NCBI GenBank assembly: GCA_016987375.1
Contig: PJRA01000453.1
Span: 744,884 to 808,883, forward strand
DNA length: 64,000 nucleotides
Direction of reading: 5' to 3'
Source: Brachionus koreanus
Taxonomy: Eukaryota > Rotifera > Eurotatoria > Ploima > Brachionidae
In this document: in pieces, positions 5-40,090 of the stretch
How positions within the stretch are numbered: the stretch's first letter is position 1
Layout: each line of letters opens with the position of its first letter
Program-made: the position numbers and the translations under genes
Notes under the pieces: model-generated
What the model saw: only the letters and a program-made list of their open reading frames with translations
What the model was told of the DNA's origin: nothing
Database searches by the model: none

Positions 5-1264
5 TCATTCGATTGAAAAAGTTAGAGTGGTCAGATGATAATATTCCTTCTCTGGATTTAAAATACAATTTGGAAATTGTTTCTTCAAAAAGAATATAGA
101 AATTTTTGATTTTTTTTTTCATTTCAACAAAAAATTACATGATTCAATGAATCTGGATAATTGTGAGCTTCTAAGCAAAATCCATGATGTTTTTTAAAAT
201 GTGAACCATGAGAAGTACTAATATCCAAAAAGTTTCCTGTGTAAAAATACAAACCTGGCTGATTGGATTTCAATTCAAACATGATTCCATTTGAAGGATT
301 TTTAACTCTTTTATAAAATAAAATAATTTAAAACCCTAAAAAATAAAATTTAAATTACGATGCCAAAACACTCAGAGCTAAATCAGAACTATTATTATTT
401 CCTAAGAAATAATTATCAAATCCATTCTCAGGCCAGTCAGCGTCTATTGAAATGCGTTCAGCAAGCAAGGTAAAATCTCTTAAATCGTATTTAGACTGAT
501 CAACTTGTTTGCAATTACCAGAAACTGTATTGTCCGTGTTAAGCTCCAAATACTTGTCTGAATTAATCTTAATTAAATGATTGTATATTCTATCGGTTGA
601 GTCACGTCCATTGAGGTTGAAATAAAAATGGTTTGTCATATTGACAGGTGTTGGCTTATCTGTTATTGCTTTATATTCAATACTTAGTGTATTCTCATTT
701 TCCTCCAATTTAAACCAAGCATCAAACCAAACTTCACCCGGAAAACCTCCTTCTCCGTCAGCACTTACATAACTAAATTTTACATGATTGTCGACAATGG
801 CAGAAGCCCAGTTTTTCTAATAATAAGAAAAAATTTATTTAAATAATTTCCTAAATATGTCTACCATTGCTAGACCCTTGGGTCTTCCATGCAAAGTGTT
901 ACCTCCTTCATTTTTTTCCAAATGATAAACATTGCCATTTAGTTCAAATCTAGATCTAGCAATTCGATTACTAACTCGACCAATTGTGGAACCAATGTAG
1001 GGATTAGACAAATACTCTAAATAATTTATTTAAAATATAATCAAAAGAGTTTTTTTTTCTAGCTTTGCCTTCAATAGTTTCAAATCCTAGTGCAATATTG
1101 ACCATTTTGCCGGCTTTATCCTTGGTCAGAACTGACTGAATTGAAGCTCCATAAGAAATTAAAGATACCGAAAAACCATTTTTGTTAGTCATTGTGTATT
1201 TTTTTACTATTTGTTTATCCGGAAGCTTACCGAATAAACTTTCTTCGATTTTTACTTGATTCAT
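5..1264 (-). CDS. GALM: Galactose mutarotase (aldose 1-epimerase)
   Basis: Complete five-exon gene of 351 residues, close to the usual ~340. Exons: 1264-1064, 1014-865, 816-359, 307-139 and 82-5; the stop is TGA at 7-5. The protein interconverts alpha and beta anomers of galactose and glucose in the cytosol, feeding the Leloir pathway. Family landmarks seen: SYGASIQSV near the N-terminus, the substrate-binding GSTIGRVSNRIA, the catalytic His in VNMTNHFYFNL, and the catalytic Glu in FCLEAHNYPD. Phases agree across all junctions. The first intron (1063-1015) has no GT donor; a GC-AG intron restores exactly the family spacing between GFETIEG and NPYIG. The remaining introns are 45-60 nt GT-AG. 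Identity is secure; only the GC donor is inferred. Confidence 0.95.
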
Positions 1265-2169: not shown

Positions 2170-5119
2170 CTATTTACCTGATTTATCAAATTTGATATCA
2201 CCGAAAAATAATTTTATCTCATGCTCGGCTTGTTCTTGGGTGCTCGGACCATGCAATGCGTTTTTCAGCACATCAATTCCATACAAAGCCCTCAATCTAT
2301 AAAAAAAATATTTCTAATTATTTTAAATAAATTTAAATTAAATAAAAAAATAAACATAATTGTTAAATAATAAAAAATTTGATATTTAGATATTTTTTAA
2401 TTAAAAAAATTACGATTCGGGATTTTCTTGTTTGGCTTTTTCAGGATCTACGGGTCCGATTGTTTGTCTCCAATTCTGAATGGCATTTTCTCTTGACAAA
2501 ACCATTATTTCAGTCTCGCCACTTAAATTTAAAAGTAAAAAAAATAAAAATTCAATTTTCCATTTTTTCTAAAATTTTCTACCTGGTCATCAAATTGACC
2601 AAATCATCATAGTATTCTTTATCACTGGCATTTTTATACATCTCTTTAGCAATTTCTTGGCTGAGTGTATCGGATTTTTTTGTCGCTATAATAAAACCAA
2701 AATCTTCAATTTTCTTTTTAATTTCCTCTTGAATTTAAACAAAAAATAAAATAAAATTAAAATCTTAAGAATTATGAGATTTAAGTACCTCTTTTTTCAG
2801 GTGTTAGACCAGGTTTTAGGACAGCAACTGTCTGTTCCATGGGAAAGAAAGTTTCTATTTCTTTTTGTGCCTGCTCTTCAGTCGACGGTCCATGCAAAGC
2901 ATTAATTGGAGATCCCTCGACATCAAATTCGTTTCTTAAAGTTCCGGCTGCTTCTTTTATTTGTTCTTTTTCCTTGGGTCCAAGCAAGCTTCTCCAAGTT
3001 TGAATGGCATTTTCTTTGGCCAAACAAAGAACCATCATCTGACCACTGGTCATTTCTTTGACCAAATCATCAAAATAAGGTCGGTCCTTGTGATCGGCAT
3101 AGAATTGCTCAGCTTGATCAGCACTTAATTGAACAGTTTTGCTCATTGCAATTCTAAATCCTTTATCCTGAATTCTTTTAACTATTGATTCATGGTGCTT
3201 GTTGAACGCACTCGGTCTAATCAAAGCAAGTGTTCGTTGTATTTTTTCATTTTTTTGAGAATTTTCGTAATCAGGAAAGAAAAACGCAAGCTCTCTAGTA
3301 GCCGATTCGTGGCTATCACTACCATGAATGGCATTCATTAGCTTATCACTGGCATACTGACTACGGAACGAGTCTGGATTCTCTTGTGGTTCCTCAATAT
3401 CGGCTCCAATATCCTGGCGCCAGTTGTTTATAACATCTTCGCTGTTTCCTTCTTTGGTCAAAGCCAATACACATGATTCATCACTGGTCATGTACCGGAT
3501 TAAGTCATCAAAGTGAGGCTGAAATTTTTGAAAAATTTTAATTCAGTTGAATTTTTTTTTTCAAAAATAAAAAAAAATTTTTTTAAATTTTTATTAATTA
3601 CATCATCTTTTTTGTGACCGTAAAATTCCCTGGCCATTTTTTCAGTAAATTGAACATTTCGTTGTTCGACTATTTGGTATCCTTTGTCTTTAATTTTTTC
3701 TATAATCTCATCTTTTTTGTTCTTGGCAATCATGTCTGGTTTGATTATACAAATGGTAATTGGTCTTTCGGTTTTAACTTTTTAAAAATTTAAAAAAATA
3801 AATCAATTTTTTTCTCCAAATTTTACTCAAGTGATGCACTTGTTCCTTTGATTTTTCTTCGGCTCGTTTTTTTCTTAATTTTTCAATTTCTGAATCTGTA
3901 ATCTAAAATTTGTTTAAAAAAAAAAAAAAAATTCTTGAAAAAGATAGTTTACTGGTTTTCTCTCCGCTTCTCCTTTGAGCACTTTGTGTTCTTGCTCGAG
4001 TTGTTCACTGATGGTTCGAACAATCAAGGGAGCATTAGCACCCCTGACCACACTTACCAGTTCCTTGCCCTGAGGAAAATATTTGAAATTAGTTTTGAGA
4101 AAAATTTCGAAAATTTACCTACCGCATAAAAAAGGAAACAGGGCTCACTGCGTCCCCTGTAGTCTTCCAGTGCATTAATTGTATCAGCTTTAGCCTTAGT
4201 AGAAAAAAATTTTTAAAAATCTAGTTTCAAAATGCATTAAGATTAAATATTTAAAAGCAATTTATATCTAATAGATAGCAAGCAAATATTTATGTGAAAC
4301 TCACTATGGCAAAGTGTAATTTGTCATCACCGAGTGTGTTTTTAAGTGATCTAAATCTTGACTCCATGGCCCTAAGGGGTCCGCCATAGCTCTGGTACAC
4401 ATCAATAACTATTCATTTATTTATTAATAATAATAATAAAAATAATAAAAAAATGTGATTTTTTTTAAATTAAAAAAATATAGTGATAAATCAAAAATTT
4501 GGTCTAGTGGTGAATTTTTTGTGAGACTAAAAAAATGTGAATTTTAGTCTAAATAAATAATTAATTTTAATTACAACGGCGAATTTTAGCAAATCGTCTG
4601 ACTGTTCCATTTTAATTTTTTTAAAGATGTTCTCAAATGCTTTACATGGTCCACACCAAGCCTGGTACGCTTCGGTAACTAGCAAAAATTAGATTAGAAA
4701 AAAAAATAAATGGATAAACATTCTTTGGGGACTCGAATTATAAACATGCATCTACAACAGGGAATACTTAAATGCAACAAATAAAAGCGCTAAGGGCTTA
4801 AAATTCTAAATTATTACACTAATGAATTTAATATTAGTTTTATATTTGCAAACACTTTTCATAAATCGAAGGACATGATACGATGGACCTGTCCATCTCT
4901 GATAAATATCAATTACTAGTATTGAAAATTTAATCGAATAAATAAATAAAGTTTAGAAATATGTTCGTCTTTTACCGATAAGACCTTCATTTTCCAGCAG
5001 TGTTTTCCATTGATCATCTGTCTCAATTTCTTGCTTAATTTAATTTCCTGTTAATATTTGGCTTCACATTCAATTTAATCAATTACTTGTAAAGCAATTT
5101 CGGCTTTTCTTCTTGCCAT
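2170..5119 (-). CDS. NME8: NME8/TXNDC3: thioredoxin plus three nucleoside diphosphate kinase domains
   Basis: Spliced protein of about 580 residues (human NME8 has 588). It begins MARRKAEIALQ in exon 5119-5087, then exon 5033-4976, then one of three alternative exons (see 4305-4915), then 4194-4123 and further exons to a TAG at 2172-2170. Order: thioredoxin domain (about residues 10-110), a charged linker, then three NDK domains beginning near PITICIIKP, KIQRTLALIRP and EQTVAVLKP. Each NDK module keeps the NxxHG region with its histidine (NAIHGSD, NALHGPS, NALHGPS). Orthologues are components of sperm flagella and ciliary axonemes, including the sea-urchin outer-arm dynein intermediate chain IC1; a ciliary role here is by homology. 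The C-terminal boundary is less sure: a splice at TCA-G before the stop could add another exon. Confidence 0.92.
4305..4915 (-). other. Cassette of three mutually exclusive thioredoxin active-site exons in NME8
   Basis: Three tandem homologous exons at 4915-4818 (98 nt), 4678-4575 (104 nt) and 4408-4305 (104 nt). All start in phase 1 after an AG and end in phase 0 before a GT. They read VIDIYQRWTGPSYHV, VTEAYQAWCGPCKAF and VIDVYQSYGGPLRAM in 5'-to-3' order, so only the middle one has the CGPC redox pair. Lengths are all 2 modulo 3. Joining copies 1 and 2 meets a stop inside copy 2. Joining 2 and 3 (or 1 and 3) makes TAG at the next junction. Skipping all three makes GGC TAA. Exactly one copy per transcript is therefore the only productive splice. 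Introns: 60, 139, 166 and 110 nt. Splicing itself is inferred; the sequences and frames are seen directly. Confidence 0.85.
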
Positions 5120-5868: not shown

Positions 5869-8800
5869 TTAAAGATAGTATCGATTAGAATTCGATAGAG
5901 TATTAGATAAAATACTATTTTTGCGTTGAATATCTTCATCTTTAATTTTCAAAATGTTCAGATAATTTTCCCGACGACTGAGACTAGAGCGAACTGATGA
6001 TCCCGATGATACACTTGAACATGTCGATTTAGAGCTAAGAAACTTGGGCTGATGAACAGTGGTAAAATAGTCGATTTCCTCATCGTTTTCAATGCAAAGT
6101 CTATTCACATCTAGGACACATGGATTTGCCTTCAAATAAACATATCTTGACTCTGGATGATCGGCTTTGTTGGCAGACAAAACCGATGACTTGGTAGAAG
6201 TGTAAGAAATTGTTGACGAAAGCTCGAAAGGACTTGGTTGCTGGGCACTTGAAAAAACTCTGTTCTCAGGCTTTTCTCTTTTTTTCAATTTTTCGAATAT
6301 GGTCACCATGGGTAGCTTAAATTTTGTCTCATTGTGTCTCAATTCCAATAGTGAGCTGCTCAATTTAAGCATTAGAAAAAAACACGTGAATATAAATAGA
6401 AAAGCAACAAATAAAACAATCAATATAAACAAATAAATATTGATTTTAATATTTATTTCATTTTCATTTCTAATTATTTGCTCAGTATATCCGCTAGAAT
6501 TAGTCTCATTTTTTAAATCAATTTCTTTTTTAAGCTTTAAAAGAGTAAAAGAGACTTTGGTTGAATTTAAAGTGACCGGTATTGTGTCTGCATTAAGCTT
6601 GTAATTGAAACACTTTGAGTGCTTGGCAGACCATTGACAGTAGGGGTACAAATTTTGATCACACTTTTCCATGCTTTTTTTTTGCTCACAAAAATCAGCT
6701 GGCATTGAAATAAGCTTATTTTGAGTTAAAATTACAAAAAAATCTGCATCTTTTTGAGCTATAAATTTTAAATTTTTAATCTGAGTCGATTTAGTCTCAA
6801 TTATTTGAGGCATAAAAAATTGACTAGGAATTTTGTTGATGTTGTTTTCAACTTTGGAGAAATTGATGTTTAAATCAGTGCCATTGAAGAGTTCAAACTG
6901 TTCAGAGTAAATCAGCTGGTCTTTGTCGAGCACAAATGTCAAAATTCTTCCATTTTCAGTGCCGACAAACAAAGTGTCTTTGGATTGAAAATCAACATCT
7001 ATGGACACAAACCGGTCGGACGTAGAGCTTTCGACCACAATGGCGTCGGATGAAATTTCTTTTTGCATGATAAAATTTTTTCGCGAAAAGACCAAATGTT
7101 GATAGGTTAGCTCGTTAGGACACTGACTAGGTCTTGGCTTGGGCACTGATTTTTTGAATCGATTGTAACTTTCGCCAAAGTCAAAATTTCCGTTTGATTC
7201 AAATTTATACTCGCCATGAAACGAGTCCATTATTTGCTCCATGTCAAATTTGCAGATAGCCGATGCGGTTATCGAATTTGTGGATGTGCTAAATACTGCA
7301 TAAAAGTATTCTTTGCCATTTTCGTTCTTATAAACTTCACTGACAGATTCTAAGATTATTTTTTAAAAATTTAAAAAAAATAAATTTATGAGTTGTTTAT
7401 TTATTTTACTTATTTCATCAAAGTAAAATGTGGTTGACTTTTTGAAAGTTGGACTGAGAGATTCGTGAGAAAATGCAGAATTGATGGCTGGGTTGTGAGT
7501 GCAGCTAAGCTTGGATTTCAAATAGGTGGTCCAAATGTTGCGCAATGAATTAAGAGGTGCACCTCTATCATTCAAACAAATATGAGCTATGTAAGAACTT
7601 TTGTACGATTGTCGTGAAATACGATTTTCATCATTTAAATTTGTCACATCTTCATTGAAAATAAAAAATATTCTTTTCTCATTTTTAAAAGTGCTTATAA
7701 ATTCAGCTCCTAAAATAAACAAATTAGCGAAAATATTTTATTTTAATTTAATTTAGAACCGGTGTTAAAAACATTTATTTTTTATTCAGATTAGATTTAA
7801 AAGATTTACTTTTAAATTTGTTACTTGGTCTTTGCCAGTAGGCCAGGTTTTATACTCAGCTTGGATTTTTAAAATTTTTGCTTTGCATATTATTTTGTAA
7901 ACAATTGAACAAGGACTAAAATTGTGTATATCTTGATTTATATTAACGTGAGTCAAAAATTTTGGATTTTTTTAATTTATCAATAAAAAAACAATAGTTT
8001 GCTAATTTTCAAAGTATAAATCATAATGTTTTATTAGTCTTAAGCCATTTATAGGAGAGTAGTTCAATTCCTCTATTCTACCATTCACGCTATTGAAGCA
8101 TAAAACTCACAGCACACTTCTTCAACTTGATCTTGGTTAGTAAAATGTCGTCCTCTAACAAAATGAGCCATTGAAAGAAAAAAAATAAACTGAAGAACAA
8201 ACACTGGGCTATATGCTGGGTGAGAAAGAAGTTGGATCCCTTCAAGCACTTATATTTTTGTCATTGTACTTCTAGCTGTTTGAGGTCTAGTGTTATCTTG
8301 AAGAAGTTTTTGGTTGACCAAAGAAGAATACTTTTGTTGTAGTGGAGCATACATTTGTTGTCACGACCGTTTGAGCCAGCTGAAAGAGTATAGCCCCTTG
8401 GAAATTCCACCATACATACAAAATCATCTTTATATCAAAGTGTACTCTTTTCACGACTGATTTAGCTGGTTTAGATGGATATAAAAAGCCCGTATAGCGA
8501 GTGGTTTGTGTGTTAGTCATGCAAGCAGAGGGTGGAGGGTTCTAAACCTACTGAGGGTGGAAAAATTTCAAAATGTCTCTACAATACGGGGCGCATGTTT
8601 AAACCCCTTTCATAAAAAAATGGGAGACTGGTTTCGACTGGGAAANNNNAATGGATATAAACATTGATTTCTGTTATCATAATTTCGAAAATAGATCTAT
8701 TTCTCATCACAAGTAATGATCTGTTTGAAAAACCGTTCATCTAGGCGATTTAAGTAGTTACTGCTGTTGCTGATAGGTCTTATTACCAATAATGATTTAT

Positions 8801-13835: not shown

Positions 13836-15271
13836 TTATTTTATTATGGTTTCTTTTAAAAATATGTTCTCATTTAGAAAGTCTAAAACAGAACTGGTGC
13901 TAATTAGCGAATTGAAAAATCTTCTCTCGCTTTTGGCGAGATTGTTCTGCAGCATTTGGGCAAGGACCTGGTGAAAGTACTGAAACGGAGTGCCGTATTC
14001 GATACATATGTTGACCCAGTCGCTGACGCACTCGACCGGGGTGCTCTGATGCCCGGCGAACATGGCCGGATTCTCAAGCAGCCCGCGTGCACACATCACA
14101 CCGCGCACATTTGCTTTACTCTTAACTCGCTCGCAGTCTTGCAGCGAAAACAAGTCTCCATTGGCAACTACTGGCATTTGCTTGACACTGTCCGCCACCA
14201 GCATCAATTGGTCCAAGTGTACCGGCTCGTGACGTTCGTGTTTTGTTCTTGCGTGAACTGTCAGATAGCTACAGCCGGCACTCTCTAACTGACGACACAA
14301 ATCAATTGTTTTGCTAATAAAAAAATCAATTAAATTTTTAATTTTAATCATTAAAAAAATAAAAAACTTGAAAAAAAATTTTTTTTTTTAAATTACTGTT
14401 GAGAGTCTAGCTGAGTTAAATTCAAAAAAAATTGTCATTAGAAATTTTTTCCCTATTGTACAATTAAGTTGAAAATCAGAAAATTTATTTTTTTTTTTTT
14501 ATCAAGAGGAAATAAATTTATTTCAAGTCAAGTCAAGAGCTAATTACTATTTAATTGAACACTTAAAACCTGAAACCAAGTCAACTGAAAAATATGCAAT
14601 ATTATCCATAACTAAAGAGCTCTTGAGCTCTATGAATTATTTTTAAATATTTGTTTTTAGATTATTTACTTTTTATTAAAAAATAAAATAAATAAAACCA
14701 GCATTTTTAACTAATATTTACCTTAAATTTTCGTGTAAGCGTATTTTAACTGCAACGGTAAAGTCCTTGTCATAATTGAGTCGTTTTCTTGTCTCTTTGA
14801 CCATCTCGCAGACGAGATCATTTTTGTCAATGAGACCGGCACCGACTCCTTCCTGAATGGCCCATTTTTGCGGGCATCCGCAATTGAGCTCGACGCCATC
14901 GGCACAATTTCGCACAAACTGTGCCGATGAAGCAAAGTCGTTTGTATTATTGGCTGCGAACTGGACTATCAAAGGCCGGTCGAATTCGTTTGTTGTAAAC
15001 TCATTGTCTCTGGCTTTTTGAGAGCGCACAAACGAATCGGACATAATCATCGGCGTATAGGCCAGATCGCAGTCGTATTTTCTGATCAGCTCTCGAAATT
15101 GCAGCCTTTTGAAATTTAAATTTCAAATTTAGTTTTTAAATCATTTTTTTTTTTTTTTTATTACTTTGTATAGCGAACCATTGGTGCGCACAGCTTGACC
15201 ATGTCACTTGATTCAAAAAGTTCAAGTGGTTTTTTATATTCAAATTTTTTGATTTCACAGTTCTCAGTCAT
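13836..15271 (-). CDS. DUS4L: tRNA-dihydrouridine synthase 4-like
   Basis: Three exons (15271-15165, 15105-14722, 14313-13836) give about 320 residues, matching the family. The product is a flavoenzyme that reduces uridine to dihydrouridine in the D-loop of tRNA with FMN and NAD(P)H. Seen: the FMN-binding start VKLCAPMVRY, YTPMIMSDSFV, RPLIVQFAAN, the catalytic-cysteine motif VELNCGCPQKWA, VKIRLHENL, the His/Arg active-site stretch YLTVHARTKHERHEPVH, PVVANGD and GVMCARGLLENPAMFAG. The second intron (408 nt) is longer than usual here. The ATG sits three bases after an AATTTAG acceptor-like site. SSBP1 ends 118 nt upstream on the same strand. Confidence 0.95.
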
Positions 15272-15389: not shown

Positions 15390-15872
15390 TTAGTTTTGAT
15401 TGAATTTATTCAAAAAAATGAGATCATCAGCCACAATATTTGTTACTAGTCTGGGCTCACCGCTTTTGTTTTTGACCAAGTCATAGTGTAGGCGTCCAGT
15501 GATGTGCAAGCGGTCACCTTGGCGCACTTTGTTCAAAGCATATTCTTGTAATCTGTGCGAAATCAAAGTAATCCGGTGCCAGTCAGTTCGATATTTTGGT
15601 TCTCCTTTTTCACCCATTCCTTGATATTCATTTGTGGCCATGGAAAAAAGAACAACCTTGTTTATTCTCTTGTTCGATTCATTATTTTCATCCTGGCCTG
15701 CAACTTTCGGGTTATGCCCGACACGGCCAATAATTTGAACCAAATTTAAAGTTCTTTCTTTAGAAATTTGCTCAAACTTTTCGTCAACTTTGTTTCTTTG
15801 GTCACATACAGTTGAATTGATCGAAAATGATCTGATAAGTGATTTGTTTAATAGTGCACGACTTAGACTCAT
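15390..15872 (-). CDS. SSBP1: Mitochondrial single-stranded DNA-binding protein
   Basis: Single-exon ORF of 160 residues. The first 20 or so residues are basic and Ser-rich (MSLSRALLNKSLIRSFS), a mitochondrial presequence. The OB-fold follows: LNLVQIIGRVGHNPKV, VVLFSMATNEY, YRTDWHRITLISHRLQEYA, QGDRLHITGRLHYDL and a final strand before the C-terminus. It coats single-stranded mtDNA during replication by POLG and Twinkle. Vertebrate genes have introns, so lack of introns here may be loss. It lies 118 nt upstream of DUS4L on the same strand. Confidence 0.95.
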   Translation of the reverse strand: MSLSRALLNKSLIRSFSINSTVCDQRNKVDEKFEQISKERTLNLVQIIGRVGHNPKVAGQDENNESNKRINKVVLFSMATNEYQGMGEKGEPKYRTDWHRITLISHRLQEYALNKVRQGDRLHITGRLHYDLVKNKSGEPRLVTNIVADDLIFLNKFNQN

Positions 15873-18236: not shown

Positions 18237-18377
18237 TTTTGTGAAATTTAGTACAATATAACAGAACAAAAAGTTAAAAAGTCTTATTACTATACTTTTA
18301 AAAGTCAAAAGCAAGTTCTGTAAATACAAAATGGTGCAACATTCAAAGTTGCACTATTATCAACAACATGGTAAAAT
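18237..18377. mobile_element. MITE family TTTTGTGAAATTT, copy A (cut by assembly gap)
   Basis: Begins with TTTTGTGAAATTTAGTACAA, the same terminus as the complete copy at 48134-48316. It contains the family core palindrome GTGCAACATTCAAAGTTGCAC near 18333-18353. The right half is lost in the run of N from 18378 to 18985. Confidence 0.7.
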
Positions 18378-18985
18378 NNNNNNNNNNNNNNNNNNNNNNN
18401 NNNNNNNNNNNNNNNNNNNNNNNNNNNNNNNNNNNNNNNNNNNNNNNNNNNNNNNNNNNNNNNNNNNNNNNNNNNNNNNNNNNNNNNNNNNNNNNNNNNN
18501 NNNNNNNNNNNNNNNNNNNNNNNNNNNNNNNNNNNNNNNNNNNNNNNNNNNNNNNNNNNNNNNNNNNNNNNNNNNNNNNNNNNNNNNNNNNNNNNNNNNN
18601 NNNNNNNNNNNNNNNNNNNNNNNNNNNNNNNNNNNNNNNNNNNNNNNNNNNNNNNNNNNNNNNNNNNNNNNNNNNNNNNNNNNNNNNNNNNNNNNNNNNN
18701 NNNNNNNNNNNNNNNNNNNNNNNNNNNNNNNNNNNNNNNNNNNNNNNNNNNNNNNNNNNNNNNNNNNNNNNNNNNNNNNNNNNNNNNNNNNNNNNNNNNN
18801 NNNNNNNNNNNNNNNNNNNNNNNNNNNNNNNNNNNNNNNNNNNNNNNNNNNNNNNNNNNNNNNNNNNNNNNNNNNNNNNNNNNNNNNNNNNNNNNNNNNN
18901 NNNNNNNNNNNNNNNNNNNNNNNNNNNNNNNNNNNNNNNNNNNNNNNNNNNNNNNNNNNNNNNNNNNNNNNNNNNNNNNNNNNNN
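18378..18985. other. Assembly gap (608 N)
   Basis: Undetermined bases. Apparent reading frames across it are artefacts. The gap starts inside a dispersed repeat, the likely cause of the break. Confidence 1.
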
Positions 18986-19225
18986 CCGAAACAATAAAGA
19001 ATAAAAAAATTAAACAGAAAATTTAGATAATTTTCTTTAAAAAAAATTGATTCAATTTATTAAAATTCATTCGCGCACCATTTTTTTTTTGAAAGAAAGA
19101 AAGAAAATAAATTTACCTGTCCACTCGGACCGACTAAACAAAATGGAATATTATCTTAGCAATAAATAAATTCTCTATTTTAATTTAAATAATATGAGAA
19201 AAAATTATATAAAATAATTTTTTTT
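18986..19225. other. EFR3 3' flank
   Basis: Short AT-rich sequence after the gap and before the EFR3 stop codon; no gene seen. Confidence 0.4.
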
Positions 19226-22200
19226 TTAATTAATAAACAATTTGGGAAAGTCAATATCACCAAGAGTAACCGATTTACTTTGATTCAAATTCTCCTTATT
19301 CAAATGAGACTGAACACTGGCATTAGTGCTCAAACTGCTAACGCTAGCATTCGATTTGTTCGGATCGGCAAAGTCTTTGGACACAAAATCAAACACTTGC
19401 TGATACTTTTCATTGCACATCAAATTTTGGTTAGTTCTGAGCAAATTTTGCTTTAGCTCATCGAACGGCATTTGATAAAAATCCCTGATTATTTTCTGGT
19501 TTTTCTCATGCTGATCGTCAACGGACACGTTAATGCCAAAAGGGGGCATACCGGCAGGCGCGATGCTACTATTAGGTCCGTGAGTGCTCGAGCCGACGCC
19601 TAGGCCGCTATTGCTCAGATTGCTGGCGTTCACATTCGACCCGCTATTGAACAACATGCGTCGTATGGTGTCAAAACTAGTCAAGTCGACATAATTACTT
19701 CTCATTCCGTTCACAGACGTAATTGTTGTCTGATTATCGTCTATGTAAAATTTCATGTTCTCTTTTAGCTTGGGATCGAGTTCGAAGCCGTGGTCTATGC
19801 TTATTTGGCTAGCGCTGTCGTAGGAAGTGTCGTCGTCCATCGAGTCCATGTCGATAGAGCGGCGCGGCGTCTGGTTGCTCTGCGATATGCCGCTGAAGCC
19901 GCGCGAATGGCCCCGATTGAACGCCTCTTCGTCGGCCGTCTCACTCTCATTCGAATACGGATTGCGATAGCGCATCGCCGACTGCACGCACGGCAATGCT
20001 TGCACATAGGCAAGCGACAGCGTGTACTCGGCACTTGTAATCAGCAAATTTTTAGAAACATTATTTCTAACGAGTATTTGTTCGATGCGCTTTTTGTCGA
20101 ACATCCAAGGCGACAACTTGACACACCAGTCAATTTCGTTGTCGCTGTTGCGACTCAGCTTGTCCACATAGGCCCTGTAGTCTTTGGCCGACTCGGTCAT
20201 GTCTCGCCTGAGCTCGGACTCTATTTCGCTGAACGAGCTAACTTGGGACTGTATGCCCGAGTCGCTCGCCGAGTCCAGCAAAATGTACTCCGGATAGACA
20301 AACTTGTACAAGTCTTTGCGCCGCCTCATGTCGCATATTTCGCTTACATAGTCGTACAAATCGCCTATTTGGCTCCATTTGGCCACTAGTAGAAAATAGG
20401 CGCATATAAATTTGTGCACTGAGCACTGTAGACTAAAGTTAAACGGCGCCGAGTCGTGATTCAACAGCGCCAAGTCTTGTACATAGAAACCGAAGCGTAG
20501 AAAATCGACCAAAAATTCGCTATCGTTCAAAAAGCCTAGTACAATCAGACTCAATGTTACATAGACTGATTCGTAGTTTTCGCGACGATTGTTGGCTATG
20601 AACAAGTACTCGTTAAAATGGGCGAGTATTGTGCGACCGTGTTTGCGCATGAACATTGAATCGTCGCGACTCGACCGATATTTTGTCCTATTTCGATCGT
20701 CTAAGCTCAATTGACTTAGAAACGTTTGATTTCGACTAAGTGTTTGTTTGGTCTCGTGTTTGTTCAATGAAAGCGCACTATCGTTTAGACTGGTGGCCGA
20801 TTTGAAATTTTTTTTCAATACAGGCACACGATACGTGCCCGGCTTAAGCGCATGTATCCGCTCGAGCATCTGATACTTGTCTATGAGCAATTGTAGTATT
20901 TCGTTGGCTTTTTTGCGCGACGCATAATCGCTGACTAGAATTAGCTTGAGGCTGTCCTCGAGAAATTGTTGACTGCCGAACGCGCCGAACACTTGCACCG
21001 GCTTGTATCTCGTGCATATTTCGTACAAGCATTCGTAGTATTTGACTCGTTTGCGACTGTTCAACAATTCCAATTCGTTTTTGTCCGTTTGTGCGTTGCC
21101 ACTCAGCTCAAAATAGCTAAATTGCTGCGTGTTTATTTGACGAGCGAAAAATACTAGTATGTCATTTTTGGCATAGTCGGGCATATTCTCGGTAAATTGA
21201 CGCATTGCGCTTATTATCTCCTTTTGCAGTTTGTTCTCGTCGGACAAATTGTCGGCCTTTTGCGACGACAAATTGTACGATTTTTCCACACTTATGTTCA
21301 TGTGCTTGAGCAAATTGTTGAATATGTCTATTATTTGACCGGTGGTGCCCACAGACTGCATGGCGCTTATTTTAGTGCACAGGATTATGGTGCGTATTAT
21401 TTTGCATTTGAGTGGTGCACGCGAGTTTCGATGCGAGTCCAGGTGTTTGAGAAGCTCGCGTACAACAAACGCGTGCTGTTGTCTCACATTGTATATGACA
21501 ATTAGAAAAATACATCTAACAAATTTGGTCAAGTTCCATCCGTGCTGAGTGTTGTCGTCCAAAAAATCCAGTATTGGCACGACTATTTTGCTTATTGTCG
21601 TATAATCGGCCTTGTTGCATATGTTTCTTAACAAAGTTTTAGCCTCGTGTTCGGGATCGGGCTGTTCAGTGTTAGTTCTGTTCTCGTTTAGACTTATGAC
21701 CACGTTTTCCTCGTCGGCGCACTCCGAATCTCGTTTGAACTCGACTTTTAGCGCCGACTCGCTACCCATCTTGTCCACGCTTCGTCTCAGCCTAGTGCTC
21801 ATGTACAAATCGCCGTAAATGTACTCGGTAAGCTCTTGTTCGTCCTCGTTATAGTCGTAGTCGCTTTGATCGTGACGATCGTTGTTTTTCGCGTCGCGCG
21901 CTAAATAGCGTTCGTGTATTATGAACAAAATGCCAGCTACTATTTTGTCGACATTGTCCCAAATGTAGCCAGCGCGTAAATTGTCGTCAGGCACTAGTCT
22001 ATGAACCATAGTGGCCAAGCATTGCAGGCCACTAGTTCTTATTTCGGCACGTATGGCCTCTTCTTTGTTGTTATTAAAACACAATGAGCTAAATTGACAC
22101 ACAAATTGATCGAAATTTAAATTGTAATTTGACAAATTAGAAGATTCTTTTTCGCAAAATTTTTGGAAAAGACCAGCTGCTTTTTTTTGATAGCGAAGCG

Positions 22201-22618
22201 ATTCGTTGTTGATGGTTGTAAGGGTGCCGTAGCTGGACGCATTCGACATGCCATTCTGGGACACCGACTGGGTTCTCAGACCGTAGCCTTGTTCGAGCAG
22301 CTTTTGAATCACTTTCAAGTAGGTCGGAGCGTAGTAGTTCAAATTTTGTGGCGTTATGGCTAGTAGAATTTTTTCCAGCGCTTCGATTGTATTCTCTATG
22401 TACTTGGCGTATTTGTAGCCGTTGTTTAGTGCCCATTTCAAATTCTGGTACAAGTATTCGCCTATTTTGGACAATTTCTCCGGATGAACAGTCGCATAGT
22501 AGAGCAGCTTGTCCACTTCGTTTTTTACCAGCGGCGCGTCGTTCTGACGCGGATAGATATTGTCCACTTTGCGCTTATATTTTGGATAGAAGCAGCAGCA
22601 AGCACAGCATGATGACAT
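19226..22618 (-). CDS. EFR3: EFR3 homologue (plasma-membrane anchor of PI4-kinase III alpha)
   Basis: One uninterrupted frame of 1130 residues. I take the start at 22618 rather than the in-frame ATG at 22660 because it places MSSCCACCCFYPKYKRKVDNIYP at the N-terminus. This matches the cysteine cluster that is palmitoylated in EFR3/rolling blackout, followed by KYKRxVDNIFP. The armadillo/HEAT-like body follows (VDKLLYYATVHPEKLSKIGEYL, EIRTSGLQCLATMV). EFR3 docks the TTC7-FAM126-PI4KA complex at the plasma membrane to make PI4P. It is about 300 residues longer than human EFR3A/B because of acidic and Ser/Asn-rich insertions (around residues 260-340 and 930-1130). It is intronless and clearly more GC-rich than its flanks. 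Identity is secure. Confidence 0.93.
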   Translation of the reverse strand: MSSCCACCCFYPKYKRKVDNIYPRQNDAPLVKNEVDKLLYYATVHPEKLSKIGEYLYQNLKWALNNGYKYAKYIENTIEALEKILLAITPQNLNYYAPTYLKVIQKLLEQGYGLRTQSVSQNGMSNASSYGTLTTINNESLRYQKKAAGLFQKFCEKESSNLSNYNLNFDQFVCQFSSLCFNNNKEEAIRAEIRTSGLQCLATMVHRLVPDDNLRAGYIWDNVDKIVAGILFIIHERYLARDAKNNDRHDQSDYDYNEDEQELTEYIYGDLYMSTRLRRSVDKMGSESALKVEFKRDSECADEENVVISLNENRTNTEQPDPEHEAKTLLRNICNKADYTTISKIVVPILDFLDDNTQHGWNLTKFVRCIFLIVIYNVRQQHAFVVRELLKHLDSHRNSRAPLKCKIIRTIILCTKISAMQSVGTTGQIIDIFNNLLKHMNISVEKSYNLSSQKADNLSDENKLQKEIISAMRQFTENMPDYAKNDILVFFARQINTQQFSYFELSGNAQTDKNELELLNSRKRVKYYECLYEICTRYKPVQVFGAFGSQQFLEDSLKLILVSDYASRKKANEILQLLIDKYQMLERIHALKPGTYRVPVLKKNFKSATSLNDSALSLNKHETKQTLSRNQTFLSQLSLDDRNRTKYRSSRDDSMFMRKHGRTILAHFNEYLFIANNRRENYESVYVTLSLIVLGFLNDSEFLVDFLRFGFYVQDLALLNHDSAPFNFSLQCSVHKFICAYFLLVAKWSQIGDLYDYVSEICDMRRRKDLYKFVYPEYILLDSASDSGIQSQVSSFSEIESELRRDMTESAKDYRAYVDKLSRNSDNEIDWCVKLSPWMFDKKRIEQILVRNNVSKNLLITSAEYTLSLAYVQALPCVQSAMRYRNPYSNESETADEEAFNRGHSRGFSGISQSNQTPRRSIDMDSMDDDTSYDSASQISIDHGFELDPKLKENMKFYIDDNQTTITSVNGMRSNYVDLTSFDTIRRMLFNSGSNVNASNLSNSGLGVGSSTHGPNSSIAPAGMPPFGINVSVDDQHEKNQKIIRDFYQMPFDELKQNLLRTNQNLMCNEKYQQVFDFVSKDFADPNKSNASVSSLSTNASVQSHLNKENLNQSKSVTLGDIDFPKLFIN

Positions 22619-22970
22619 TATTTTTGTCTGGCTGAATAGAATCCTAACTTTTACAATCAAAGGTCGCAGAAAAAAAAATTAAATCTAAAACTTGTTTTTA
22701 TTTTAATTTTATTTTAGAAAATAAATTTTTCAAAATTTTTAAATTTTGTCTATTTTTTTTTTTTTTAATTTTTTTAATTTTCAATCGGAATTAACTTAAA
22801 AATCTATAAAATAAAAAACAAAATTAATAATAACATTTTTTTACTTTTAGAGTTGTTAAAAATTGCAACTAACTAACTAAGTAGTAATAGAATCAGAATC
22901 AATTAGCTTGATTGAAAGACTAAATATTGCTTTATTCGAAGGCTTACCAATGCATACATCATTTATATTA
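22619..22970. other. EFR3 5' flank
   Basis: AT-rich flank with poly-T runs, presumably holding the EFR3 promoter; no other feature recognised. Confidence 0.4.
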
Positions 22971-39335: not shown

Positions 39336-40090
39336 ATGATTAGTTTGCTAAGAGTTGGACGATTTTCTTTTTCAAAATCAATACTAGAGGTTTATTTTTT
39401 ATAAAAATTAAATCAAAAAGATAAATTTATTTTTTGAAAAGACTTCTACCAGAGGTCTTGTGTCTTTCAAAGATATTTTTGGTTCAAAAGAAAATTCAGA
39501 GGTAGCTGAGACAAGCAAACAGAACGAAAATTTGATAGCAACAGATTTTGAAGCAATAAAAAATACTGAGTAAATTTTTAGTTTGAAAAAATTTAAAAAG
39601 CGTAAAATAATTTTACTAAAGAACAACGAGATTAGTTCGAGTAAAAGCATACAAACCGCCAGAAAATGTTGAACAATTAATTAAAAATTTTTGTCAAGAA
39701 GTTTTTGATAAAAATTTCAATGATCAAAATTTTAAAAGTTTATTGCTATCAGATCCTGGTTTAAAATTTAACTTATTAACAAAATGCATATCAGCTTTTA
39801 AACACAATATTCCAAATACATATTTGAATGATATTAAAAATGTTCAAGATTTAATTGAGTACTACACAACAGAATTAAAAGACACCAGTCCTCTTGAGGA
39901 TATTTATCAACAACAAGACCTGCCAAAGAATATTCATATAAACTTGGAATACAATCGGTTCGTACCCGAAACTGACAAATTCTTTAATGGCAAAGATGCC
40001 TTTCCAGAACGAAACACTGTTGTAACTAGTTTATGGTACTCAAAGAAATATAAATCTGTCAATAAAAAAAAGCCTTATTTTATTAAATAA
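39336..40090 (+). CDS. MRPL50: Mitochondrial ribosomal protein bL50m
   Basis: Three exons: 39336 onward (MISLLRVGRFSFSKSILE, a basic mitochondrial presequence), a second from TSTRGLVSFKDIFGS, and a third from TTRLVRVKAYKPPENVEQLI to 40090; about 200 residues. The family core is visible: YKPPENVEQLI, LLSDPGLKFNLLTKC, IPNTYLNDIKNVQDLIEYY and LPKNIHINLEYNRFVPE. It is a metazoan component of the large mitoribosomal subunit. The junction phases (0 and 2) are consistent. Confidence 0.88.

Follow-up and report, generated by a model that had tools for sequence, protein, structure and literature searches.

The gene and its surroundings

The window analysed here, a stretch of 64,000 nucleotides from the rotifer Brachionus koreanus, holds on its minus strand, at 2170-5119, an NME8/TXNDC3-type gene with 11 exons per mRNA, the third of which is present in three tandem versions (cassettes 3a, 3b and 3c, in short a, b and c). 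Its product has a thioredoxin domain at the N-terminus and three nucleoside diphosphate kinase (NDK) domains, which is the composition given for NME8/TXNDC3 in the accessible part of PMC2777172; in the isoform carrying b, Pfam finds Thioredoxin at 35.1 bits and the NDK domains as three stretches. The best solved relative of the gene product is human NME9/TXNDC6 of the respiratory axoneme (E 1.1e-76), and this match, together with the Pfam domain make-up, bears out the NME8 identity assigned in the preliminary description of this DNA. Among the matches listed, the nearest named proteins are those of Brachionus plicatilis (515/579 aligned residues) and B. calyciflorus. The gene appears to be single copy, as the 839-bp cassette region matches itself alone in the 83-Mb, 92-contig assembly, with no second gene copy or allele, and high identity in a protein search of the same assembly was confined to the NME8-type gene. 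Its parts are, in the order of transcription:

5087..5119, minus strand: exon 1, with the start codon (MARRKAEIALQ), placed by gene model and alignment to human NME9
4976..5033, minus strand: exon 2, constant, upstream of the cassettes, phase 1 at its end
4916..4975, minus strand: intron 2, 60 nt, preceding 3a, docking signal not above shuffles
4818..4915, minus strand: cassette exon 3a, 98 nt, encoding VIDIYQRWTGPS followed by a tail of 21 residues with no detectable homology; the weakest copy, possibly a relic
4679..4817, minus strand: intron 3a-3b, 139 nt, GC 0.28, the highest among the gene's 12 introns
4575..4678, minus strand: cassette exon 3b, 104 nt, encoding VTEAYQAWCGPC..., with WCGPC; the sole CxxC copy
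4409..4574, minus strand: intron 3b-3c, 166 nt
4305..4408, minus strand: cassette exon 3c, 104 nt, encoding VIDVYQSYGGPL..., with YGGPL; groups with bdelloid Y-type cassettes
4195..4304, minus strand: intron 3c-exon 4, 110 nt
4123..4194, minus strand: exon 4, constant, downstream of the cassettes, starting in phase 0 (AKADTINAL...EPCFLFYA)
2170..4069, minus strand: exons 5-11 (3953-4069, 3827-3902, 3602-3777, 2789-3518, 2583-2727, 2414-2521 and 2170-2296), encoding the end of the thioredoxin domain, the three NDK domains and the stop

By its GC content, the intron between 3a and 3b looks as if it held a remnant of older exon sequence or control elements. On its upstream side the gene adjoins exons of a Sema-domain protein (5869-7737, minus strand; a weak PSI match). 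Short minus-strand fragments at 8085-8760, with four N at 8646-8649, resemble by eye a decayed mariner-type transposase; Pfam gave no match for 8085-8249 on that strand. A run of about 600 N at 18375-19000 splits the window. Elsewhere in it, Pfam identified the following genes or domains:

355-813, minus strand: aldose 1-epimerase
13839-14387, minus strand: dihydrouridine synthase
15393-15872, minus strand: SSB
19229-22678, minus strand: EFR3
39620-40087, plus strand: mitochondrial L50
62891-63850, plus strand: PH domain

Cassette exons in Brachionus and similar swaps in other rotifers and bivalves

The preliminary description reported three tandem homologous exons at these positions with common phases and lengths of 2 mod 3, each encoding a strand and active-site helix of the thioredoxin fold and only the middle one containing CxxC. 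Both the arrangement and the anatomy stand, with a being related to the other copies in its first part only. All three exons have GT-AG borders and a length of 2 mod 3, are entered in phase 1 and left in phase 0, and for each of the three pairs 0/2000 shuffles reached the observed relatedness score. We searched 2635 translated window pieces of at least 15 aa with a profile of 45 cassettes, none from the window. It recovered b (E 4e-16), a (E 6.9e-5) and c (E 5.2e-21), the value for c not being independent because the profile contains the near-identical c cassette of B. plicatilis. The next-best piece had E 0.91, and no fourth cassette copy was found among these pieces. The thioredoxin profile PF00085 (cut-off 23.5 bits) scored 38.6 with b, 23.7 with c and 20.2 with a. 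An assembly error as the source of the copies was ruled out, since they differ at more than half of their residues and two of the types recur in other species.

With a single cassette, the mRNA stays in frame as far as the natural stop, giving proteins of 579 (a), 581 (b) or 581 (c) aa, and skipping of all three leads to a stop at codon 32, as previously noted. The further claim that any pair gives a stop is correct at the mapped splice sites, where two-cassette products end at codons 94, 98 and 100 and the triple product at codon 94, but it does not extend to a possible inner acceptor, a CAG ending at nt 17 inside each copy, which, if used in the copy lying downstream, keeps the double cassette in frame for 3/3 ordered pairs. 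The frame rule is strong and, because of this inner CAG, not absolute. Judged by their protein letters, gene models of B. calyciflorus and Adineta ricciae look as if they used the inner-CAG joint.

Two protein searches returned 158 and 148 matches, of which 120 each were listed, together comprising 161 different proteins; the database is clustered at 90% identity, and isoform counts drawn from it are lower bounds. A single cassette was parsed in 156/161 listed proteins, and the other five (P0002, P0049, P0121, P0122 and P0123) are gene models with parts of two. Tandem cassette pairs occur in models of B. calyciflorus, A. steineri and A. ricciae, and in two Rotaria models the first cassette is truncated. 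In the B. calyciflorus model, b comes first and the inner portion of c after it, as in the window, and a is missing. Exon b is identical to its B. calyciflorus counterpart at 34/35 positions and the inner part of c at 24/29, the remainder of that protein at 429/545, so by these counts b is conserved above the rest of the protein and c about equally. The B. plicatilis entry shows c only, identical at 34/35 positions with a remainder of 481/544. Three protein pairs of Rotaria socialis, the contigs being equally long within each pair, differ at 19 positions, all within the cassette, where YGGPC stands against WAGPC. In a cassette tree of only 35 columns, nine rows from bdelloids, Brachionus and one metagenome protein form a starred Y-type clade (100/98), and since this clade spans bdelloids and Brachionus, the Y-type cassette is probably older than the bdelloid-monogonont split. 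Taken across species, the comparisons lend good support to exons b and c.

Swaps of the same protein segment are annotated in bivalves. The Mercenaria isoforms X5 (CGPT) and X22 (CGLC) have identical flanks (90/90) and agree at 14/35 cassette positions, and Dreissena P0048 (CGPV, a GenBank hypothetical protein) and P0089 (CGLC, isoform X19), from contigs of equal length, likewise combine 90/90 flanks with 13/35 in the cassette. All mismatches of the two pairs fall in the cassette (21/21 and 22/22), and gaps are the sole differences elsewhere. RNA reads underlie database models of this type. Twelve of 29 listed species-cassette record pairs with a flank identity of at least 93% have a cassette identity below 70%; three of them are pairs within a species and nine are between species (Rotaria, clams, oysters and scallops), the latter being a hint, short of proof, of unlisted alternative exons. 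Oysters P0040/P0087 and scallops P0005/P0061 each have flanks identical at 86/90 positions and cassettes identical at 19/35 and 22/35, which may hint at hidden alternative exons in further bivalves. The cassette tree was also considered as proof of a shared origin of the rotifer and bivalve swaps and was dropped for this purpose, 35 columns being too few to resolve it.

Exon 3a and the active-site motif

Exon a matches the cassette profile at positions 1-11 only, and shuffling its 21-residue tail did not lower the score, with 311/500 shuffles scoring as high or higher. Its codon log-odds is exceeded by 61% of the stop-free blocks in the window (13% for b, 12% for c), its GC content is 0.28 (b 0.38, c 0.42), and its branch in the cassette tree, at 2.62 changes per column, has no starred placement. 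One protein-database search on the cassette region (one candidate) returned zero matches and thus no outside relative of a. Scans of viral_contigs (one pattern stretch) and genome_contigs (404 stretches), neither of them a natural home for rotifer DNA, gave no relative. Searching related species for the cassettes, as the preliminary description had suggested, was informative for b and c, which are conserved and have annotated alternative proteins in other rotifers, and gave no relative for a in the one search made.

We lean towards a cluster with two options in use, b and c, with a as a duplicate in decay that no longer has thioredoxin sequence in its tail; this would be a narrower form of the mutually exclusive reading preferred below. 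The tail without detectable homology, the empty database search, and a GC content and codon use near background all point this way, as do the B. calyciflorus model with b and c and the presence of two types among bdelloid proteins. However, in a the two splice sites, the phases and the open frame are intact, as is the core VIDIYQRW.GP, with TGPS at the active site, and the first 12 residues of a score best against the first-position cassette of A. ricciae, nemertean and oyster cassettes following within one point. The open frame is only mild evidence, since some 13% of the window's 99-nt blocks contain no stop. Either exon a is a third option that changes fast, or it is a copy undergoing decay, and we consider a function for it rather doubtful. 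The proposal of three functional isoforms thus went too far, given that a has no outside relative in the single search and consists mostly of non-homologous sequence.

NME8-type proteins were previously taken to have a fixed CGPC. Among the listed relatives from rotifers, molluscs and other spiralians this is not the case, as CGPC occurs in 19/45 distinct cassettes and the first Cys is missing in 20/45. A redox switch proper, with b as a dithiol enzyme and c and a as enzymatically dead forms, appears unlikely to us. It would account for the presence of CGPC in b alone and for clam pairs that set CGLC against CGPT or CGPV; among the pairs seen, a dithiol form faces a dithiol-less partner in Brachionus (b) and in the clams (CGLC type). 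It would further fit an effect of redox state on the outer arms of Chlamydomonas, described in the accessible text of PMC10886578, and a study cited in PMC13256974 in which sperm without the NME8 thioredoxin domain were more sensitive to oxidative stress. Yet the first Cys is absent from both cassette options of Rotaria socialis, and b itself carries Glu at position 3, where 44/45 outside cassettes have Asp. Moreover, NME8 and NME9 are reported, in the available sections of PMC2777172 and PMC13256974, to be without thioredoxin activity even with CGPC. This report stands against the sperm protection cited in the second of these sources, and the earlier wording of one redox-active and two redox-dead isoforms is doubtful and over-read the motif. 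Because so many cassettes (20/45) lack the first Cys, both R. socialis options do, and no thioredoxin activity is reported, the swap is more readily understood as altering the active-site face, i.e., its contacts and possibly redox sensing, than as turning an enzyme on or off.

AlphaFold models of P0001 (YGGPL) and P0132 (WAGPC) predict the same cassette elements, a strand at 29-35, a helix at 42/43-56 and a strand at 61-67. Model confidence over residues 31-50 is 66 and 63 for YGGPL, and 83 and 78 for WAGPC. The pTM values are low (0.43 for YGGPL and 0.40 for WAGPC), and the domain arrangement is therefore unsure in both models. The YGGPL model aligns with the human axonemal NME9 chain over 128 columns (TM 0.91 by target, rmsd 1.5), and the fold match of the B. 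plicatilis protein is the human axoneme chain 8j07_v1.

Probable exclusive cassette choice in a putative outer-arm subunit

That a single cassette is constitutive and the others are silent duplicates without regulated use is very improbable: the B. plicatilis entry shows c alone, and c is about as conserved in B. calyciflorus as the remainder of the protein (24/29), but b exceeds this remainder (34/35), and the Rotaria and bivalve protein pairs also speak against it. Marginally less probable still is double inclusion via the inner CAG, producing a thioredoxin domain in which the helix is duplicated, the way certain rotifer models read, for while 3/3 ordered pairs are in frame and 5/161 listed proteins hold parts of two cassettes, the fusions use differing makeshift joints, of which two cut the first cassette short, 156/161 listed proteins have a single parsed cassette, and a second helix would be expected to break the fold.

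We consider it highly probable, from the sequence comparisons above, that the locus is a mutually exclusive exon cluster in an NME8/TXNDC3-type gene, a cluster that exchanges the active-site face of an outer-arm dynein thioredoxin subunit. One gene would probably yield a motor subunit in versions that have the redox motif and versions that lack it. Each mature mRNA would take one cassette, whose product runs from a thioredoxin strand through the active-site loop and a helix to a second strand. Exclusive splicing in vivo, which we infer, agrees with the annotated protein pairs of Rotaria and bivalves. It is probably kept by splice-site choice together with decay of skipped and double-inclusion mRNAs, and the frame rule would clear most of the wrong products. 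Competing RNA pairing is one known means of selection and is not required for mutually exclusive clusters. The competing docking and selector elements envisaged in the preliminary description did not emerge from this one genome: in six pairs formed by the four introns, with 200 shuffles each, base-pairing was not clearly above shuffles (as strong in 19/200 shuffles for the strongest pair, and in 32, 38, 67, 109 and 193 for the others). The introns between the copies (139 and 166 nt) are longer than the shortest introns of the gene (49-61 nt), which makes simple crowding an unlikely means of selection.

By homology, the product would belong to the thioredoxin subunits of outer dynein arms, and its presence in the rotifer outer arm is presumed from its relatives. 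According to the accessible parts of the respective sources, the sea urchin outer-arm protein IC1 has NME8 as its orthologue (PMC8754002), and NME9 is an LC3-type subunit on a heavy-chain tail (PMC10886578). The rotifer protein has its thioredoxin fold in common with the outer-arm subunits LC3, LC3BL and NME9. The LC3-like subunit LC3BL of Tetrahymena is described, in the part of PMC8500839 available, as switching contacts between the beta and gamma heavy chains. According to PMC10886578, whose accessible text does not mention cassette choice, CxxC is retained in LC3, LC3BL and human TXND6. Most likely, the cassette swap would alter the CxxC-bearing face and with it the contacts with dynein heavy chains or the redox sensitivity, and it would act across different cilia, sexes or life stages.

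The human TXNDC3/NME8 isoform TXNDC3d7, reportedly described by Duriez in 2007, is said to arise by skipping of exon 7. It belongs to the same family and is stated to bind microtubules and act in cilia (PMC8754002, as far as its available text goes), but it is a single isoform, whereas the rotifer gene offers a choice among homologous exons. An NME8 splice isoform is hence already known in human (PMC8754002), and tandem exons with mutually exclusive use are an established class. Those described in the accessible text of two human surveys (PMC5740500, PMC9741552) are likewise homologous neighbours used one per mRNA; in the rotifer, by contrast, the exchanged segment is the one that bears the CxxC of an axonemal thioredoxin. 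A term search of the main texts of these surveys, as available, did not find 'NME8' or 'thioredoxin' in either or 'TXNDC' in PMC9741552. The Rotaria and bivalve protein entries are already in public databases. Within the accessible open-licence literature, which excludes most subscription papers, we found no published swap of a thioredoxin active-site cassette.

The role of the NME8/NME9 thioredoxin domain is called unresolved in a 2026 review (PMC13256974, in its available portion). A natural swap that takes out the cysteines and leaves the protein otherwise unchanged offers a ready test of motif versus surface, here in an animal that swims and feeds by cilia. Mammalian NME9 is reported from non-sperm motile cilia only (PMC11779644, in its accessible part). 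The rotifer cluster suggests that alternative splicing, beyond gene duplication, diversifies outer dynein arms. With slightly less than even confidence, we propose that Spiralia tune their outer dynein arms by splicing NME8 active-site faces with and without redox cysteines, and that the swap goes back far in rotifers, with bivalves either sharing it or having acquired it anew. If true, different cilia, sperm or life stages would carry motors that differ in redox response or in heavy-chain coupling.
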